Shown here piece by piece: positions 5,372-62,326 of a DNA stretch of 64,000 nucleotides. This stretch comes from Gemmatimonadaceae bacterium (GTDB taxonomy: Bacteria; Gemmatimonadota; Gemmatimonadetes; Gemmatimonadales; Gemmatimonadaceae): positions 62,001-126,000 of the forward strand of contig DASUHB010000028.1 of NCBI GenBank assembly GCA_036273715.1, written 5' to 3'. Every line of letters begins with the position of its first letter. Position 1 is the first letter of the stretch. The notes below the pieces were generated by a model. It searched no databases. It worked only from the letters and a program-made list of their open reading frames with translations, and was not told the origin of the DNA. The position numbers and the translations under genes were made by a program.

Positions 5372-7113
5372 CCCTCGCCTCCGGCGGGCGGGGCTGTCGG
5401 CTCGGCCGTTTTCTTTCGGGCCCGTCCGCCGCCGGATCGGCGCGGTTTGGCGGGCGCCTCGGTCTGGGCGGGGGCGGCGGCAGCGGTGGCTGTCTTGCCG
5501 CGTGTGCGGGCGCCGGATTTGCCGGCGCGACGGCCGCGCGGGCGCCGCGCCGGCGCGGTGTCGGCGACGGCCTCTGTGCCGGCCTCCGGAACGGCCTCGG
5601 CGGCCGGCTCGGGCGCGGCTTCCGGTTCGGCTGGCGTTAGGCCAACGACGCCGACCGAGAAGAGATCCGGCGGCAGCTCGCCGGCGCGGCTGGTGCGAAG
5701 TCCGCGGTGGCGCATGCCGCGGCGCAGGGATGCGGCGTTGGCGACGCTCCGTTGGGCCTGGCTCGCGTCGGTTGCTGCATCGGCGGCCGGCGCGGCCGGC
5801 GCGGCGGCAGCCGCGCGGGCCGCGGCGGGCGCCACCTCGTAGTCCTCGCCGTGGAGGCGGAGGTCGATCCGTTCCGCATCGTGCGCATCGCGCAGGATGC
5901 GGTGGAAGAACCGCTCGTTGAGCGACTCCGAGTCGCGGCCGAGGAGCTCGCGGGCCGCACGCCTAACGACGGACGCGGGCACGGGTTCGGCGGACGTGGC
6001 GCCGACCTGGGCGACGGCGCGCTGGACCAGGTCGAGGGCTTCCTCGCGGGTGAGGCGCTCGCCCGTCATCTCGGCCGTGGGCGGAGCGGCGACGGGCTCG
6101 GCCATGGGCGGCGCGAGGTGGGCGTCGCGCGCCGCTGCGGGCGCCGGGGCGCCGCGGTTGCGGTCGCGTCCGCGACCGCGGCCGCGGCGGCCGCGGCGCG
6201 CCGTCTCCTCGGTGCCGTTCGCGCGCTCCTCCGTTAGTCCGTTAGGCGCGGACGCGCGCGGCGCCGCAGGCGCCGCCGCGGCCGCACCCTCGCCCGCCGC
6301 GTCCACCTCCATCTGCCCATTCTCGAGCTTCGTCAGCTTGAGCAGCCCGCGCTGGGCCGCCTCGGTGACGAACCGCGAGAACTTCGCCATACCGAGGTTC
6401 TTCTCGTCGAACGAATTGTCGATGTCCTGCATCACCTGCTTCAGGCGGTCGGCGCGCATCACATCGCCGTTCCGCTTCATGCGGGACACCGCTTCCACCA
6501 CCAATTCCCACGGATCGCGCGAAACGTGTTCGTCCTCGCCGGACTTCACCAAGCCGGCAAGCGCGTTGTAGCTGTAGTACTCGTCGCAATTCATGACGAG
6601 CAAATCGCTCGACGATTCGCGAATGCCGACGCCGATCACGTACTTCCCGTACTCCTTGAGCTTGACGACGAGACTCGAGAAATCGGAGTCGCCCGACAGC
6701 AAGATGAATGTGCCGATCTCCGAGCGCGTGAACACGAGCTCCAGCGCATCGATCGCCAACCGAATGTCGGTCGCGTTCTTCTTGGAGGAGCCGTACGCCG
6801 GCGCGAAAATGAGGTCGATCGACGCTTCGGTCAGCGGCACGATGTACTGCGGATAGCGCCGCCAGTCGGCGTACGCGCGCTGCACCGCGACTTTGCCTTT
6901 GATGATGTCCGACGAGAGCAGATTACGAAGTTCGTGTCCCAGGTCGGAACGGATCCCCATCGTGACGTTGTCGAAATCGATGAGGAGCGCGGCATTGGGC
7001 GCATGCACGAACGGCGGCGCGCCGAACGACTGCGCCGCCATGGCTTGCGGACCTCGATGCACGGGAGTGACCGGAATCCGGGACGGCGCCGGTCGCATGT
7101 TGCGTGAGTTCAT
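5368..7113 (-). CDS. NYN-domain (LabA/DUF88) protein with LOTUS-like domains
   Basis: 581 residues. Residues about 40-185 form a NYN (PIN-like) domain: [22 protein letters not shown] and [12 protein letters not shown] supply the acidic metal-binding residues typical of this ribonuclease-like fold. Residues about 200-270 ([12 protein letters not shown] ... [15 protein letters not shown]) look like an OST-HTH/LOTUS RNA-binding domain. A second helical segment at about 355-430 ([10 protein letters not shown] ... [12 protein letters not shown]) may be another. Between and after them lie Ala/Pro/Glu linkers and Arg/Gly- or Arg/Lys-rich basic tracts, probably disordered and RNA-binding. The start ATG 7113 has AGGAAG upstream. 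It overlaps both neighbours by 4 nt. The RNA target is unknown. Confidence 0.85.
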
Positions 7114-37654: not shown

Positions 37655-38161
37655 GTGATTGTTTTAGGCATCGATCCGGGCACCGCTGCCACCGGCTATG
37701 GCGTGGTGACGGATCATTCGGGGGAGCCGCGCGGCTCCCTTTCGCTTATCGAGTGCGGCGTGATACGCACGGCGCCGCGCGATGCGCTGAGCGTGCGGCT
37801 CTCGGGACTGTACGACGAAGTGCGCGGGCTCATCGTGCGCCACCGGCCCGAGGCGTTGTCGATCGAAGACGTGTTCTATGCCAAGAACGTACGCACGACG
37901 GTGGTGCTCGGCCACGCGCGCGGCGTCGTGTTGTTGGCTGCGCAGCAGAGCGGGATGGCGATCTTCGAGTATCCGCCGGCCGAGATCAAGAAGACCGTTG
38001 TGGGCGCGGGCGCGGCGACCAAGGCGCAGGTGCAATTCATGGTTGCGCGCTTGTTGCGCCTCAAGAGCGCGCCGCAGCCGTATGACGCGGCCGACGGCGT
38101 GGCGGCGGCGCTGGCGCATCTGCTCACGGCGCGCATCCCGCGCCTGGAGCGCGTGCGATGA
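37655..38161 (+). CDS. ruvC: Holliday-junction resolvase RuvC
   Basis: 168 residues, RNase-H-like fold. Acidic active-site residues: Asp in VLGIDPGTAATGYG, Glu in SIEDVFYAKNVRT, and the C-terminal Asp pair in YDAADGVAAALAH. NVRTTVVLGHARGVVLLAA and FEYPPAEIKKTVVGAGAATKAQV are typical. It cuts Holliday junctions at symmetrical sites together with RuvAB. GTG start 37655, 9 nt after yebC; its stop overlaps ruvA (ATGA). Confidence 0.96.
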   Translation: MIVLGIDPGTAATGYGVVTDHSGEPRGSLSLIECGVIRTAPRDALSVRLSGLYDEVRGLIVRHRPEALSIEDVFYAKNVRTTVVLGHARGVVLLAAQQSGMAIFEYPPAEIKKTVVGAGAATKAQVQFMVARLLRLKSAPQPYDAADGVAAALAHLLTARIPRLERVR

Positions 38162-38760
38162 TCGCGCAGGTCAATGGTACGCTGGTGGCCAAGGACCTGG
38201 ACCGCGTGGAAGTGATGACGGCAGGCGGCGTCGCGTACGAGCTCACCATCCCGTTAGGCGCGTACGAGCAGTTGCCGCGGCTGGGCGACCCGGTGACGCT
38301 GCAGACGCACGTTGTCGTGCGCGATGATGCGTGGATGCTGTTCGGGTTCACGACCGTGCACGAGAAGCGCGTGTTTCAGCGGCTGCTCACCGCGAATGGC
38401 GTCGGGCCGGCGCTGGCGATCGGGATGCTCTCGGCGCTTTCGGCCGAGCGGCTGGTGCGTGCGATTCAGGAAAAGGATCTCGCGACGCTGCAGGGGGTGC
38501 CGCGCGTGGGTCGTAAGAAAGCGGAGCGGCTGGTGCTCGACCTGGCCGACAAGCTGGACGACGTGATGATCGCCGGGGACGGCGCGGCGAGACCCGCGAG
38601 CGCGGCAGCGGATGATGCGATGCGGGCGCTGGTGTCGCTCGGCTATAGCGCGAGCGACGCGGAAAAGGCGGTGCGACGCGTGGTCGAAGCCCAAGGGCCC
38701 GGCCGCACGGCGTCAGAGCTCATTCGGGCGGCATTGGCGCGGATGACGGGCCCGGGTTGA
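38158..38760 (+). CDS. ruvA: Holliday-junction branch-migration subunit RuvA
   Basis: 200 residues. N-terminal OB fold (MIAQVNGTLVAKDLDRVEVMTAGGVAYELTIP), acidic-pin region and two helix-hairpin-helix motifs (LLTANGVGPALAIGMLS and LQGVPRVGRKKAERLVLDLADKL), then a short linker and domain III (DDAMRALVSLGYSASDAEKAV) that binds RuvB. All domains are intact. Overlaps ruvC by 4 nt. Its usual partner ruvB is not next in line but about 6.1 kb further on, after hipBA and a permease module. Confidence 0.96.
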   Translation: MIAQVNGTLVAKDLDRVEVMTAGGVAYELTIPLGAYEQLPRLGDPVTLQTHVVVRDDAWMLFGFTTVHEKRVFQRLLTANGVGPALAIGMLSALSAERLVRAIQEKDLATLQGVPRVGRKKAERLVLDLADKLDDVMIAGDGAARPASAAADDAMRALVSLGYSASDAEKAVRRVVEAQGPGRTASELIRAALARMTGPG

Positions 38761-38772
38761 GTCAGCCCTGAT

Positions 38773-38849
38773 GTAATCGATCGGCGACATTTGACGGAAG
38801 TAAACGATCGGTGACATTTGACAAATGTAAGCGATCGTTTACAATTGTC
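38773..38849 (+). repeat. Three 27-bp-phased direct repeats: hipBA operators
   Basis: Imperfect 23-bp units begin at 38773, 38800 and 38827, exactly 27 bp apart with 4-nt spacers. All share GTAA-N-CGATCG; the first two continue with G-(C/T)-GACATTTGAC. The third contains GTAAGCGATCGTTTAC, one mismatch from a perfect 16-bp palindrome. They overlap the promoter just upstream of hipB. This is the expected form of a cooperative autorepression site for a HipB dimer; the binding protein is inferred from position. Confidence 0.75.
38818..38845 (+). promoter_or_regulatory. Sigma-70 promoter of hipBA
   Basis: TTGACA (38818-38823, perfect), 16-nt spacer, TACAAT (38840-38845, five of six). It lies within the second and third repeat units, so a bound repressor would occlude it. 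Transcription should begin near 38852, which excludes an upstream GTG at 38818 as the hipB start and supports ATG 38872. Confidence 0.75.
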
Positions 38850-38871
38850 TATTGTCTCCGATCCTTACACC

Positions 38872-39147
38872 ATGCTGATCCGCACCGCTCACGAGCTCGG
38901 GCATTTCATTCGCGACCGCCGCCGCACGGCCAACATGACGCAGGACCAACTGGCTAGGCGCATCGGCGTGAGCCGCCAGTGGGTCGTTGATATCGAACGC
39001 GGAAAGCCGACCGCTGCACTCTCACTCGTGCTTCGGACGCTCACGGCGCTTGGGATCCGCATCGACCTGCGACCGCAGGAGGCTCTGCGCGAGCGCAACT
39101 CGATCGATCTGAACGCGATCATCGAGCGCGCAAAGTCACGCCGTTGA
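38872..39147 (+). CDS. hipB: HipB-like antitoxin, Xre-family DNA-binding protein
   Basis: 91 residues, one HTH domain: LGHFIRDRRRTANMTQDQLARRIGVSRQWVVDIERGKPTAALSLVLRTLTALGI, the classic Xre/HipB helix-turn-helix with VSRQWVVDIERGKP as recognition helix. The C-terminal tail (RERNSIDLNAIIERAKSRR) is the kind of extension that contacts or is degraded in HipB proteins. ATG 38872 is chosen because the promoter's predicted start site lies downstream of the longer GTG option. It should neutralise HipA and repress the operon by binding the three operator repeats. Followed after 19 nt by hipA. Confidence 0.9.
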   Translation: MLIRTAHELGHFIRDRRRTANMTQDQLARRIGVSRQWVVDIERGKPTAALSLVLRTLTALGIRIDLRPQEALRERNSIDLNAIIERAKSRR

Positions 39148-39166
39148 ACCGCCGTCGGACTCAAAG

Positions 39167-40453
39167 ATGAAGCGGGATCGAGTGCTCATCGCCTTACTCG
39201 ACGGAGCGCGTGTCGGCTCGATCGAGCGAGATGGACACGGGCGCCTGCGCTTCATCTATGACGACGCGTGGCGTGGAGACGCGAGAGCGTACCCGCTCTC
39301 GCTCGCCCTCCCGTTAAGCGCGGCAGAACATAGCCATGACCCGACGAACGCGTTTCTGTGGGGGCTCCTGCCCGACAATGATCGAACGTTGGACCACTAT
39401 GGCCGCCTGTTCGGTGTCTCGCCGCGGAATCCGATTGGGCTGCTTTCGCGCCTGGGTGCCGACTGCGCCGGCGCAGTCCAATTCGCGAGTCCGGACGATG
39501 TCGAGCGCCTCACTGCCACCCGTTCTGCCGAGCACGTACAATGGCTCAGCGAAGAGGAGGTCGCCGCTGAGCTCCGCAGCGTTCGGCAAACCGGAATACC
39601 CGGCATGTCCGCGCGCATGGGCGGGCAATTCAGCCTTGCCGGTTCCCAGCCGAAACTTGCGCTACTCGAGGAACGCGGACGGTGGGGCAGACCGAGTGGC
39701 CGAACGCCGAGTACATGCATTCTCAAGCCACCGACCGGCGAGTTCCACGGTTTTGTAGAGAACGAGCACTTCTGTCTCACGGTCGCAAGGTTCCTGAGCA
39801 TCGGCGCTGTCTCTTCACGCGTAGTTCAATTCGGCAACGAGACGGCAATCGTCGTCGAACGATTCGACCGCGCCAAACGGGGTCCGTTGTACACCCGCAT
39901 TCACCAAGAGGATGTCTGTCAGGCTCTCGGCGTGATGCCAACGCGGAAATATGAAAATGAGGGGGGACCTGGTATTGCCAGAGTGATTCAGCTCTTGCGC
40001 GACGCTTCGGCGAATCCGCAAGACGACATTCTGCGCTTCCTCCGCGCCACCGCCTTGAACTGGGTCATCGCCGCAACAGATGCACACGCCAAAAACTACG
40101 CTCTGCTGCACGCAGCTGGCGGCGCGCTCCGGCTCGCTCCGTTTTATGACATCCTCAGCTTCTTACCGTACGACGGGGCACTTCACGACGTGAAACTCGC
40201 CATGCGTATTGGCAGCCAGTATCTTGTTCGTCGCGTTAATCGCCGCTGCTGGGAGACTCTCGCAAAAGCGTCTGGGTTAGGCACGAAAGACGTTCTCGAC
40301 ATCGTGCGCGACGTTGTCGCTCAAATGCCGACCGCAGTCGAATCGGCGGCAGACGCAGCAATGGATGCCGGACTGGATGCAACGGTTATCCGGACACTGG
40401 ACACGCGTATCAGAGGCCGAACGCGCACCTGCGCCGCCATGCTCACCGCGTGA
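39167..40453 (+). CDS. hipA: HipA-like serine/threonine kinase toxin
   Basis: 428 residues, full length for type II HipA. N-subdomain (VLIALLDGARVGSIERDGHGRLRFIYDDAW), SRLGADCAGAVQF, GGQFSLAGSQPKLAL (ATP-loop region), TCILKPPTGEFHGFVENEHF (ATP-binding Lys), catalytic loop NWVIAATDAHAKNYALL (Asp) and the metal-binding APFYDILSFLPY. The kinase looks intact. In E. coli HipA phosphorylates glutamyl-tRNA synthetase, stopping translation; here the target is not known. A/T-richer with less biased codons than its neighbours, consistent with recent acquisition. It contains a G6 run (39961-39966). Confidence 0.92.
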   Translation: MKRDRVLIALLDGARVGSIERDGHGRLRFIYDDAWRGDARAYPLSLALPLSAAEHSHDPTNAFLWGLLPDNDRTLDHYGRLFGVSPRNPIGLLSRLGADCAGAVQFASPDDVERLTATRSAEHVQWLSEEEVAAELRSVRQTGIPGMSARMGGQFSLAGSQPKLALLEERGRWGRPSGRTPSTCILKPPTGEFHGFVENEHFCLTVARFLSIGAVSSRVVQFGNETAIVVERFDRAKRGPLYTRIHQEDVCQALGVMPTRKYENEGGPGIARVIQLLRDASANPQDDILRFLRATALNWVIAATDAHAKNYALLHAAGGALRLAPFYDILSFLPYDGALHDVKLAMRIGSQYLVRRVNRRCWETLAKASGLGTKDVLDIVRDVVAQMPTAVESAADAAMDAGLDATVIRTLDTRIRGRTRTCAAMLTA

Positions 40454-40572
40454 GTGCAATCGTGCCTACCTGGGATGGGTACCGCTGTGGAGCCCATAGT
40501 CGCCGCGGGCTGGCAGGACGGACCGCCGCGCTCTAAGATGAGCGGATACATCGCACTGGAGTTCGGGATCGC

Positions 40573-41727
40573 ATGATCGCCCAACGAGCCATGACGTTCA
40601 CGGAGTCCGTGATTCGCGAGATGACGCGGATTGCGCAGCAGCACGGCGCGATCAATCTCGCGCAGGGATTCCCCGATTTCCCGATGCCGGCGCCGATGAA
40701 GGACGCGGCGTGCGCGGCAATCCAGGGCGACATCAATCAATACGCCATCACGTGGGGGGCGCCGGCGCTGCGGCTCGCAATCGCGGAGAAGTATCGGCGG
40801 TGGTATGGGTTGGAGGTCGATCCGGACCGCGAGATCACGGTGACGTGCGGCGCCACCGAGGCGATGGCGGCGACGTTTCTTGCGTTAGTCAATCCGGGCG
40901 ACGAAGTGATCGTGCTGGAGCCGTTCTACGAGAATTACGGACCGGATGCGATCCTGGCCGACGCGAAGCCGGTGTTCGTGCCGCTCGAGGCGCCGAAGTG
41001 GAGGCTCGATCCCGATCGGCTGCGCCGCGCGTTCAGCGCGCGCACCAAGGCGATCATCGTCAACACGCCGCACAATCCGTCGGGGCGTGTGCTGTCGCGC
41101 GACGAGTTGTCGCTGATCGCGGAGTTGTGTCAGGAGCACGATGCGTGGGCGTTCACCGACGAGATCTACGAGCACATCCGCTACGCGGGCGCGCACCACG
41201 CGCTCGCGACGTGGCCGGGGATGCGCGAGCGCACCGTGACCATCTCCGGATTGTCGAAGACGTTCAGCTGCACGGGCTGGCGGTTAGGCTACGCGATCGC
41301 GCCGGCGGCGGCGGCGACCGCCATCCGCAAGGTGCACGACTTTCTCACGGTGGGCGCGCCGGCGCCGCTGCAGGCCGCGGCGGCGGTGGGCATGGCGTTC
41401 GACGCCGACTACTACAATCACCTCGCGCGCGACTATCGCGAGCGGCGCGACGTCGTGTGCGCGGCGCTGACCGAGGCGGGGTTCACCTACACGGCGCCCG
41501 AGGGCGCGTACTACGTGCTGGCCGATTTCTCGTCGCTGTCCGACCAGCCCGATGACGCGTTCGCCAAGTGGATGACGCGCGAGGTGGGTGTGGCCACGGT
41601 GCCGGGATCGAGTTTCTACCACGACCCGGCGTTAGGCCGGTCGGTGGTGCGCTTCGCGTTCTGCAAGAAGCGCGCGACGCTCGAGGCGGTGGCCGAGCGG
41701 CTGGCGCAGCTGGCGGCGCGGGTCTAA
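40573..41727 (+). CDS. Class I/II PLP aminotransferase
   Basis: 384 residues, fold type I. Features: INLAQGFPDFPMPAPM near the N-terminus, VTCGATEAMAATFLALVNPGDEVIVLEPFYENY, NTPHNPSGRVLSRDEL, FTDEIYEHIRY (PLP-contacting Asp/Tyr), and ISGLSKTFSCTGWRLGY with the PLP lysine. Closest by pattern to kynurenine/glutamine transaminase K or methionine (MtnE-like) aminotransferases rather than aspartate aminotransferase. Alone between hipA and the minus-strand permease gene. ATG 40573, with CTGGAG about 10 nt upstream. Confidence 0.87.
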   Translation: MIAQRAMTFTESVIREMTRIAQQHGAINLAQGFPDFPMPAPMKDAACAAIQGDINQYAITWGAPALRLAIAEKYRRWYGLEVDPDREITVTCGATEAMAATFLALVNPGDEVIVLEPFYENYGPDAILADAKPVFVPLEAPKWRLDPDRLRRAFSARTKAIIVNTPHNPSGRVLSRDELSLIAELCQEHDAWAFTDEIYEHIRYAGAHHALATWPGMRERTVTISGLSKTFSCTGWRLGYAIAPAAAATAIRKVHDFLTVGAPAPLQAAAAVGMAFDADYYNHLARDYRERRDVVCAALTEAGFTYTAPEGAYYVLADFSSLSDQPDDAFAKWMTREVGVATVPGSSFYHDPALGRSVVRFAFCKKRATLEAVAERLAQLAARV

Positions 41728-60496: not shown

Positions 60497-62326
60497 ATGT
60501 CCCAACCGACAACCGGCGCGCTCGCGACGACGCAGACGGCCGCGCATGCGCGGTGGCGCTCGATCGAGTGGACGTTGCCGCTCCTGATCTGCGCGCTGCT
60601 GCTCCTCGTCATGGCGGTGTTCGCGACGATCACGTACGAGGCGGTGCGCATGGCAAGCCTCCGGGCCGCCGAATCGCGCACCGAAGCGGTCGCCCAACAA
60701 TTGGCGTCGCTCCTGGACGCGTCGATGCAGCGCACGCTCGCCGATGCGCGCCAACAGGCGACGGCGCCTTCGTTGGTCGCATTTCTCCGCTCGCCCAACG
60801 ACGCCAACAAGGCAGCCGCGTTGGCCGAGCTCACGCGGTTGTCCGCGCGCTCGCCGCAATCGCTGGGTGCCGAGCTGCGCGACGCGGCCGGCCGCCGCGT
60901 CCTGGGCACGACCGGGTTTTCGCCCAACGGTGCCCTGCTCGTGCCATCGGCCGGCCGCGAGGCCGAGATCAGCGCGCTGCGTTGGACCGGCACGTCGGTC
61001 TGGATCGACGTCGCCGCCCGGGTGCATGCCGGCCCAACGGACACGTTGGGCACGCTCGTGCAGTACTCCAGCCTCGGCACCGCGCAGTCGCAGAAGGCGC
61101 TCGAAGACCTGATCGGCCCGACGGCCGTGTTTCTGCTCGGCAACCAGGACAACTCGATGTGGACGAACATCGAGCGGCCGGTGGCCGGCCCGCACTTCGA
61201 CCCGCGCGGCAGAACAGCGTTGATCCGCGACACCGTAGGCGGCGGCAGGATCGGCGCGATCATGCGCATGCGCGCGGCGCCATGGGTCGTGTGGGTGGGG
61301 TTGCCGATGGCGTCGGTGCTCGCGCCCGTGCACATCCTGTTGGGGAAGCTCGTCGTGACGGCCGCGATCATACTCCTGATCGGCGCCGGCGTTGCCTGGT
61401 TGGCGAGTCGCCGCGTCACCAAGCCGTTGGGCGAGCTGACCCAGGCATCGGAGGGCATCGCGGCCGGGGATTATTCGCGGCGCGTTCCCGTGCTGCACGA
61501 CAACGAGTTGGGCAGACTCGCCGCGTCGTTCAATTCGATGGCGGCACAGATCGACGATGGGCGGCGCGATCTCGAGCAGCGCGTCGCCGAGCGCACCACC
61601 GAGCTGCGCGGCGCATTGGAGCGGCTCAACCTTGCCCAACAGGAGGTCGTGCGGAGCGAAAAGCTGGCGTTCCTCGGCCAGTTGGCCGGCGGCGTGGGCC
61701 ACGAGCTGCGCAACCCGCTCGGCGTGATGACCAACGCGGTACACTATCTTGGTCTGGTGCTAGAGAATGCGCCGGCAACCGTCGTCGAGTATCTCGGCAT
61801 CCTGCGCACGCAGATCGGCCTCGCCGAGCGCATCGTGGGCGACCTGCTGGACTCGGCGCGCGTGAAAGCGCCGCAGCGCGAGGCGGTGGCCGCGCGCGAC
61901 CTGTTCAGCGACCAGCTCAAGCGCATCGCGATTCATCCGGGCATTACCGTGGACGTGGACGTGCCCGCCGACGTCCCGCCGCTCTACGTCGACCGCATTC
62001 AGTTAGGCCAGGTGCTGCTCAACCTGATCAGCAACGGCACGCAGGCCATCGGCGAGAGCAAGGGCACGCTCACGCTGCGCGCGCGGGCCAACGGCGATCG
62101 CATGGCGACGCTCGAGGTGCAGGATACCGGCAGCGGCATCGGGCCCGAGAACCTGCCGCACATTTTCGAGCCGTTGTTCACGACCAAGGCGCGCGGCCTC
62201 GGGTTAGGCCTGTCGGTCGCGCGGTCGCTGGTCGTCGTCAACGGCGGTGAGCTGGCCGTAGAAAGCGAGAAGGGCCGCGGCAGCACGTTCACCGTGCGCG
62301 TGCCGATCGTCGGAGCGCACCCATGA
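60497..62326 (+). CDS. Membrane sensor histidine kinase with extracytoplasmic sensor and HAMP
   Basis: 609 residues from ATG 60497 (GGGGACC just upstream); an in-frame GTG at 60386 would add 37 residues of low complexity. TM1 about 21-45, an extracytoplasmic sensor domain of about 230 residues (Cache-like: RTEAVAQQLASLLDASMQRTLADA ... FDPRGRTALIRDTVGGG), TM2 about 285-310, HAMP (ASRRVTKPLGELTQASEGIAAGDYSRRV), coiled coil, H-box LAGGVGHELRNPLGVMTNAVHYLG, N-box LLNLISNGTQAIGE, G1 DTGSGIGPENLP, G2 RGLGLGLSVARSL. Note Gly-Val-Gly before the His rather than the commoner Gly-Val-Ala/Ile-Ala. Overlaps the dual-receiver gene (ATGA). Confidence 0.9.
   Translation: MSQPTTGALATTQTAAHARWRSIEWTLPLLICALLLLVMAVFATITYEAVRMASLRAAESRTEAVAQQLASLLDASMQRTLADARQQATAPSLVAFLRSPNDANKAAALAELTRLSARSPQSLGAELRDAAGRRVLGTTGFSPNGALLVPSAGREAEISALRWTGTSVWIDVAARVHAGPTDTLGTLVQYSSLGTAQSQKALEDLIGPTAVFLLGNQDNSMWTNIERPVAGPHFDPRGRTALIRDTVGGGRIGAIMRMRAAPWVVWVGLPMASVLAPVHILLGKLVVTAAIILLIGAGVAWLASRRVTKPLGELTQASEGIAAGDYSRRVPVLHDNELGRLAASFNSMAAQIDDGRRDLEQRVAERTTELRGALERLNLAQQEVVRSEKLAFLGQLAGGVGHELRNPLGVMTNAVHYLGLVLENAPATVVEYLGILRTQIGLAERIVGDLLDSARVKAPQREAVAARDLFSDQLKRIAIHPGITVDVDVPADVPPLYVDRIQLGQVLLNLISNGTQAIGESKGTLTLRARANGDRMATLEVQDTGSGIGPENLPHIFEPLFTTKARGLGLGLSVARSLVVVNGGELAVESEKGRGSTFTVRVPIVGAHP

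Follow-up and report, generated by a model that had tools for sequence, protein, structure and literature searches.

The best-described counterpart of the hipBA toxin-antitoxin locus analyzed here, which comes from a Gemmatimonadaceae bacterium, is hipBA of Escherichia coli K-12. According to the accessible parts of two reports, E. coli HipB binds cooperatively to four operators and bends the DNA by 70 degrees (PMC3376134, PMC3920265), and the O1O2 oligonucleotide has a 28-bp pitch within the operator pair (PMC3376134). The portion available of a third report mentions HipA dimerization within the E. coli operator complexes, which the G22S substitution in HipA is thought to disturb, and likens the hipBA1 and hipBA2 promoters of Caulobacter crescentus to the E. 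coli higher-order complex (PMC7029023). For Legionella pneumophila hipBST, the accessible text describes operators O1 to O3 as evenly spaced and HipB bound, two of them being asymmetrical (PMC10653801). In the E. coli K-12 sequence, we read four exact TATCCN8GGATA sites with spacings of 28, 39, and 28 bp, one dyad (centre at -58) lying, as judged by eye, between TTGACT and TATAAT. A 2015 structure paper on the E. coli system reportedly described HipA-HipA contacts between adjacent operators.

We analyzed a 64,000-nucleotide stretch (the window; positions 62,001 to 126,000 of contig DASUHB010000028.1, assembly GCA_036273715.1), in which the hipBA promoter carries three 18-bp dyads at an exact 27-bp pitch. 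Based on sequence comparison, these dyads are almost certainly autoregulatory operators for HipB or HipBA, and their pitch is conserved in relatives that use different operator sequences. The array, the promoter, and the operon comprise the following features.

38772-38789, + strand: predicted operator site 1, TGTAATCGATCGGCGACA, exact match to the degenerate consensus TGTMRNCGATCGNYKACA on both strands, within repeat copy 1
38799-38816, + strand: predicted operator site 2, AGTAAACGATCGGTGACA, 27 bp beyond site 1, one mismatch to the consensus
38818-38823, + strand: -35 element TTGACA, inside the 9-bp linker that separates site 2 from site 3
38826-38843, + strand: predicted operator site 3, TGTAAGCGATCGTTTACA, 27 bp beyond site 2 and within the spacer of the promoter, a near-perfect dyad and an exact match to the consensus
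38840-38845, + strand: -10 element TACAAT, sharing its first 4 bases with the end of site 3
38853-38870, + strand: candidate degenerate site 4, TGTCTCCGATCCTTACAC, with an exact left half (TGTMnnCG) and a right half off by 1 nucleotide
38872-39147, + strand: hipB-like antitoxin gene, 91 amino acids, XRE helix-turn-helix (Pfam HTH_31, 1.6e-12; HTH_3, 2.2e-9; both over cut-off)
39167-40453, + strand: hipA-like kinase toxin gene, 428 amino acids (Pfam HipA_C, 1.6e-51; Couple_hipA, 3.8e-22)

A repeat search returned a 27-nucleotide direct repeat in three copies (starts at 38770, 38797, and 38824; spacings of 27 and 27 bp), each containing one 18-bp dyad. The motif GTAANCGATCG matched at 38773, 38800, and 38827 on the + strand and at 38832 on the - strand, the latter match being the opposite arm of the third dyad; shuffled windows were expected to hold 0.12 matches, and four matches were found in 0 of 100 shuffles. 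The triple-repeat score at lag 27 was 53 out of 66; no shuffle among 2,000 reached this value (mean, 30.4), nor did any of the other 634 tiles of 205 bp in the window, for which the maximum was 49. The first-pass annotation, made from the window alone, had placed three units exactly 27 bp apart at these + strand positions, as all three analyses bear out. It was also right that the third unit is a near-perfect palindrome, but it had called the other two half-conserved, whereas under the degenerate consensus each of the three is a full or nearly full dyad. The half-sites alternate between TGTA and TGTC, and all fit TGTMRNC save for one A in site 2. Exact copies of the consensus outside the hipBA promoter are absent from the whole 4.34-Mb genome, and copies with one mismatch occur at 3 further places. 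The core of candidate site 4 lies exactly 27 bp past site 3, in register with the array, and its left-half motif occurs in the window at 7.7e-4 per position and strand; this site is a possible part of the array. The next-best triple-repeat tiles in the window, at 5701-6101, 11801, and 44201, scored 47 to 49.

The σ70-like promoter (TTGACA-16-TACAAT, 38818-38845) matches 11 of 12 consensus positions and is the better of two such pairs and the sole one on the + strand. Site 3 occupies its spacer, an arrangement seen in 8 of the 25 loci inspected, the window locus included. The sites had been said to cover both promoter elements: the -10 is overlapped by 4 bp of site 3, but the -35 lies between sites. 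By its gene order and domain matches, the locus is a predicted hipBA type II toxin-antitoxin operon, in which an XRE antitoxin gene is followed by a gene for an intact-looking predicted kinase toxin. The window HipB scored about 69.4 to 69.6 bits against the Y4mF antitoxin model (TIGR03070, NCBIfam), below the cut-off of 71.65, and 22.1 bits against the E. coli-type HipB model (NF007271), far under the cut-off of 79. The window HipA matches E. coli HipA chains at 7e-57 and retains residues S150, D309, H311, N314, D332, G22, and P86 of that protein, D88 not being kept; we take these residues, including the catalytic ones among them, to have the roles assumed for E. coli HipA.

The locus resembles E. 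coli hipBA, its closest known case, in the hipB-hipA operon, the several 18-bp promoter dyads, the 27- to 28-bp centre-to-centre pitch, and the dyad in the promoter spacer. The dyads differ in that they conform to TGTMRNCGATCGNYKACA rather than TATCCN8GGATA, and the array is a continuous 27-27 series, whereas that of E. coli consists of two pairs split by 39 bp. With Legionella hipBST it shares three evenly spaced sites, but the gaps there are 53 bp and the motif is different; moreover, HipS and HipT are split in that system, whereas the window HipA combines the N-terminal Couple_hipA and C-terminal kinase domains in a single protein.

To determine how far the pitch extends, we surveyed 165 loci, seeded with relatives of the window HipB or with HipA proteins of its phylum and thus not representative of all HipBA systems. 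We kept 152 loci, having dropped those with a short upstream region, non-ACGT letters, or an identical upstream sequence. A HipA-centred set of 70 places, drawn from a longer list, combined 30 already among the loci with 40 fetched, 5 being unusable (4 without a HipB match and 1 with too little upstream sequence). From 75 loci, we selected 33 whose HipB proteins are less than 60% identical and subjected the 200 bp preceding hipB in each to a repeat-lag analysis blind to the motif. The best lag was 26 to 28 bp in 22 of the 33 (2.5 expected), compared to 4/32 further upstream, 2/33 in hipB coding sequence, and 3/33 downstream. With a TGT-type dyad pattern allowing at most 2 mismatches in 12, at least two dyads were found in 60 of the 152 loci and in none of 3,040 shuffled promoters. 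The 135 adjacent spacings were 25 bp (1), 26 bp (8), 27 bp (76), 28 bp (32), and 48 to 100 bp (18), so that 116 fell at 26 to 28 bp and none at 29 to 47 bp; restricting the count to non-redundant loci (20 of 72) left 39 spacings, 35 of them at 26 to 28 bp. The named array loci span Gemmatimonadota, Pseudomonadota, Myxococcota, and Actinomycetota. The array of L057 has up to five sites.

The same pitch was found with other dyads. L013/L103 carries dyads of a different sequence (GTGATCNNNNGATCAC and related ones), whose centres lie at -120, -66, and -39; together with a weak dyad at -93 recognized by eye, they give three 27-bp steps. In 13 Xanthomonas and Stenotrophomonas loci, the sites form two groups, 25 to 28 bp apart within and 48 to 72 bp between; two further loci, L080 and L085, show an interval of 99 to 100 bp, probably because one site falls under the detection threshold. 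In xanthomonads and E. coli alike, the within-group pitch is held while the between-group DNA varies. The pitch thus appears to be conserved independently of operator sequence, the outcome expected if neighbouring HipBA complexes touch. A lack of conservation of the pitch had been named in advance as one of the outcomes that would refute the first-pass reading, HipB operators in the hipBA promoter whose pitch matters; the pitch is instead kept in relatives with other operator sequences, and it is 28 bp in E. coli, which supports this reading. Pitch labels were clustered on a HipB tree (43 changes versus 64.5 when shuffled), although this tree (127 rows, 80 columns) is poorly resolved, with unsettled bootstrap values, and we infer no history from it. 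E. coli was labelled "other" by repeat lag despite its pairs 28 bp apart, probably because the best lag there is 67 (28 + 39), the value obtained in the 33-locus analysis.

HipB relatives were then sought in plasmid and phage sequences, giving 67 plasmid and 2 phage records; 18 were fetched (17 of the 40 plasmid records listed and 1 phage), and these loci were chosen to be diverse, without prior sight of their promoters. Pitches of 26 to 27 bp or multiples were found in 9 of the 18 (26, 26, and 24 bp in L202) and pitches of 48 to 51 bp in 8, the sole exception being phage Sansa, in which neither class was found. The group near 50 bp, also present in the earlier HipA-centred set, includes the Y4mF antitoxin of pNGR234a, and 6 of its 8 members have TTTCCCGnnCGGGAAA-type dyads. 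At least two TGT-type dyads occurred in only 2 of the 18 loci, the remainder using other dyads, and we therefore rejected the TGT-type motif as a general HipBA operator; the pitch is shared more widely than the motif. Across the sets, a second HipBA class, with TTTCCCGnnCGGGAAA-type dyads upstream of hipB at a pitch of about 50 bp, comprises L126, L127, L130, L144, L147, L158, L161, L207, L209, L211, L214, and L217; in L173, L186, and L190, whose HipB proteins form a more distant group, the dyads are about 40 bp apart. Viral contigs contained 4 distant loci with 34 to 38% identity.

Comparison with the same genus placed array and operon together. In L053 (the same locus as L010), hipBA likewise lies just after ruvA, HipB is 81 to 82% identical to that of the window, and the hipB start codon is kept. 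Its exact dyads, three in number, start from -65, -38, and -11 as counted from the ATG and are spaced by 27 and 27 bp. The third is an exact inverted site immediately before the ATG, a point in favour of candidate site 4 of the window. The cassette (window 38745-40529) is present in the window's own genome and in genome G005 and absent from the ruvA-aminotransferase junction of G004, a member of the same genus in which these two genes are directly adjacent; the alignment of G004 to the window stops near 38745 and restarts near 40530. As G004 lacks both cassette and array, the presence of the array follows that of hipBA.

We consider it very probable that these observations are explained by an autoregulatory hipBA array in which the 27-bp pitch places neighbouring complexes in contact, leading to cooperative repression. 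A HipB dimer would read each 18-bp dyad through its helix-turn-helix. With site 3 in the spacer, the -35 flanked by sites 2 and 3, and a possible site 4 on the transcription start, occupation of the sites would shut the promoter. The pitch would put adjacent HipB2 or HipB2A2 complexes in mutual contact, most likely between HipA subunits of adjacent operators, as described for E. coli, and the outcome would be cooperative repression with HipA kept inactive on the DNA. At 10.5 bp per turn, 27 bp amounts to 2.57 turns, so that adjacent complexes would lie, before bending, on roughly opposite faces of the helix and alternate sites on roughly the same face, which reverses the claim that alternate sites face opposite sides. 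In view of the E. coli precedent, the HipB-only wrapped or sandwich-like complex proposed at first seems less likely than HipA-bridged HipBA complexes.

Several observations weigh against this explanation. Linkers 1 and 2 of the window are identical at 7 of 9 positions and repeat units 1 and 2 at 85% of all 27 nucleotides, which may reflect a recent duplication, and candidate site 4 fits the consensus in one half only. At a repeat-lag threshold of z of at least 4, the 122 HipA-bearing loci divided into 47 near 27 bp (or double), 12 near 50 bp, 5 near 40 bp, 19 with another lag, and 39, about a third, with none; 27 bp is therefore not universal among HipBA loci. Finally, 27-bp arrays occur without an adjacent hipA gene in L015, L107, L112, and L091, the last of which ends at a contig edge. 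A strict requirement of the 27-bp array for HipA was accordingly not upheld, and HipA need not be present now.

These arrays bear on the rival that survives best, in which HipB dimers alone cooperate on adjacent sites and the spacing rule has no need for HipA. The orphan hipB genes of L015, L107, and L112 retain the array, and E. coli HipB itself is reported, in the accessible text, to be cooperative on four operators (PMC3376134, PMC3920265). The orphans may, however, have lost HipA recently, and dyad pairs (z of at least 3) are far commoner beside HipA, at 96 of 122 HipA-bearing loci versus 7 of 30 XRE loci for which no HipA was found close by, 4 of these 7 being at 27 bp. The effect attributed to G22S, in the part of the report available, also points to HipA dimerization (PMC7029023). 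We regard cooperation of HipB alone as rather unlikely. HicA/HicB-like frames lie near the orphan hipB of L015 and VapB/VapC-like frames near that of L112 (names assigned by eye).

An improbable alternative is that the dyads are HipB operators as predicted but that their pitch has no function of its own and is simply left over from the tandem duplication of 27-bp units. Beyond the similarity of units 1 and 2 in the window, the units of L057 are near-identical, and of 35 adjacent pairs in the non-redundant set, 19 were more alike in direct than in inverted orientation, the reverse holding in 9. Linkers are nevertheless dissimilar in most loci although the pitch is kept (42% identity within a locus versus 31% between loci), so that recent tandem duplication does not account for most arrays; one pitch is common to different operator sequences, and the xanthomonads vary the interval between groups but hardly that within groups. 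The same tally of 19 to 9 led us to drop two-fold symmetry of inverted pairs as a rule, which inverted copies at the proximal sites of xanthomonads and at sites 1 and 3 of L053 had suggested. That the sites serve another regulator or the end of ruvA is hardly credible, since G004 lacks the whole stretch together with hipBA, the genome has no exact site elsewhere, and comparable arrays are found ahead of hipB in other phyla.

The window locus itself joins the known hipBA operator arrays; what is new here is the cross-locus comparison of pitch. The same spacing in several phyla, despite differing docking sequences, suggests that the regulatory complex needs the spacing itself. If so, persistence of the pitch from phylum to phylum despite changing operators would mean that selection acts on the geometry between complexes, not just on the single site. 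Operator number and pitch would bear on the retention of HipA at the promoter and thereby on the switching-on of persistence. A wider proposal, which we advance tentatively and hold to be doubtful, is that HipBA dyad spacing is quantised at 27 ± 1 or 50 ± 1 bp whatever the operator sequence. A conserved contact between HipA subunits (or between HipB subunits) would fix these distances, and long arrays would nucleate a helical assembly of HipBA on DNA, the length of this assembly determining how much toxin is stored. The two classes correspond to about 2.6 turns and, for the TTTCCCGnnCGGGAAA-type dyads, about 4.75 turns; being some two helical turns apart, they roughly keep the rotational relation. 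Should it hold, the wider rule on pitch is the main point of interest, and the natural variants 27-27, 28-39-28, 27-(48 to 72)-27, and 50 offer ready test DNAs for the geometry model. Within the open-licence papers searched, a set that leaves most subscription papers outside, we found no statement of a cross-phylum 27-bp rule, the nearest being the accessible text of the Caulobacter paper (PMC7029023).

The genes flanking the operon in the window are the following, the 111-bp gap between ruvA and hipB housing the array.

38158-38760: ruvA
40573-41727: aminotransferase gene

A second, distant hipBA-like locus, without a significant array by the repeat-lag test, lies on the same contig of this genome (G000:C28:157493-158109).
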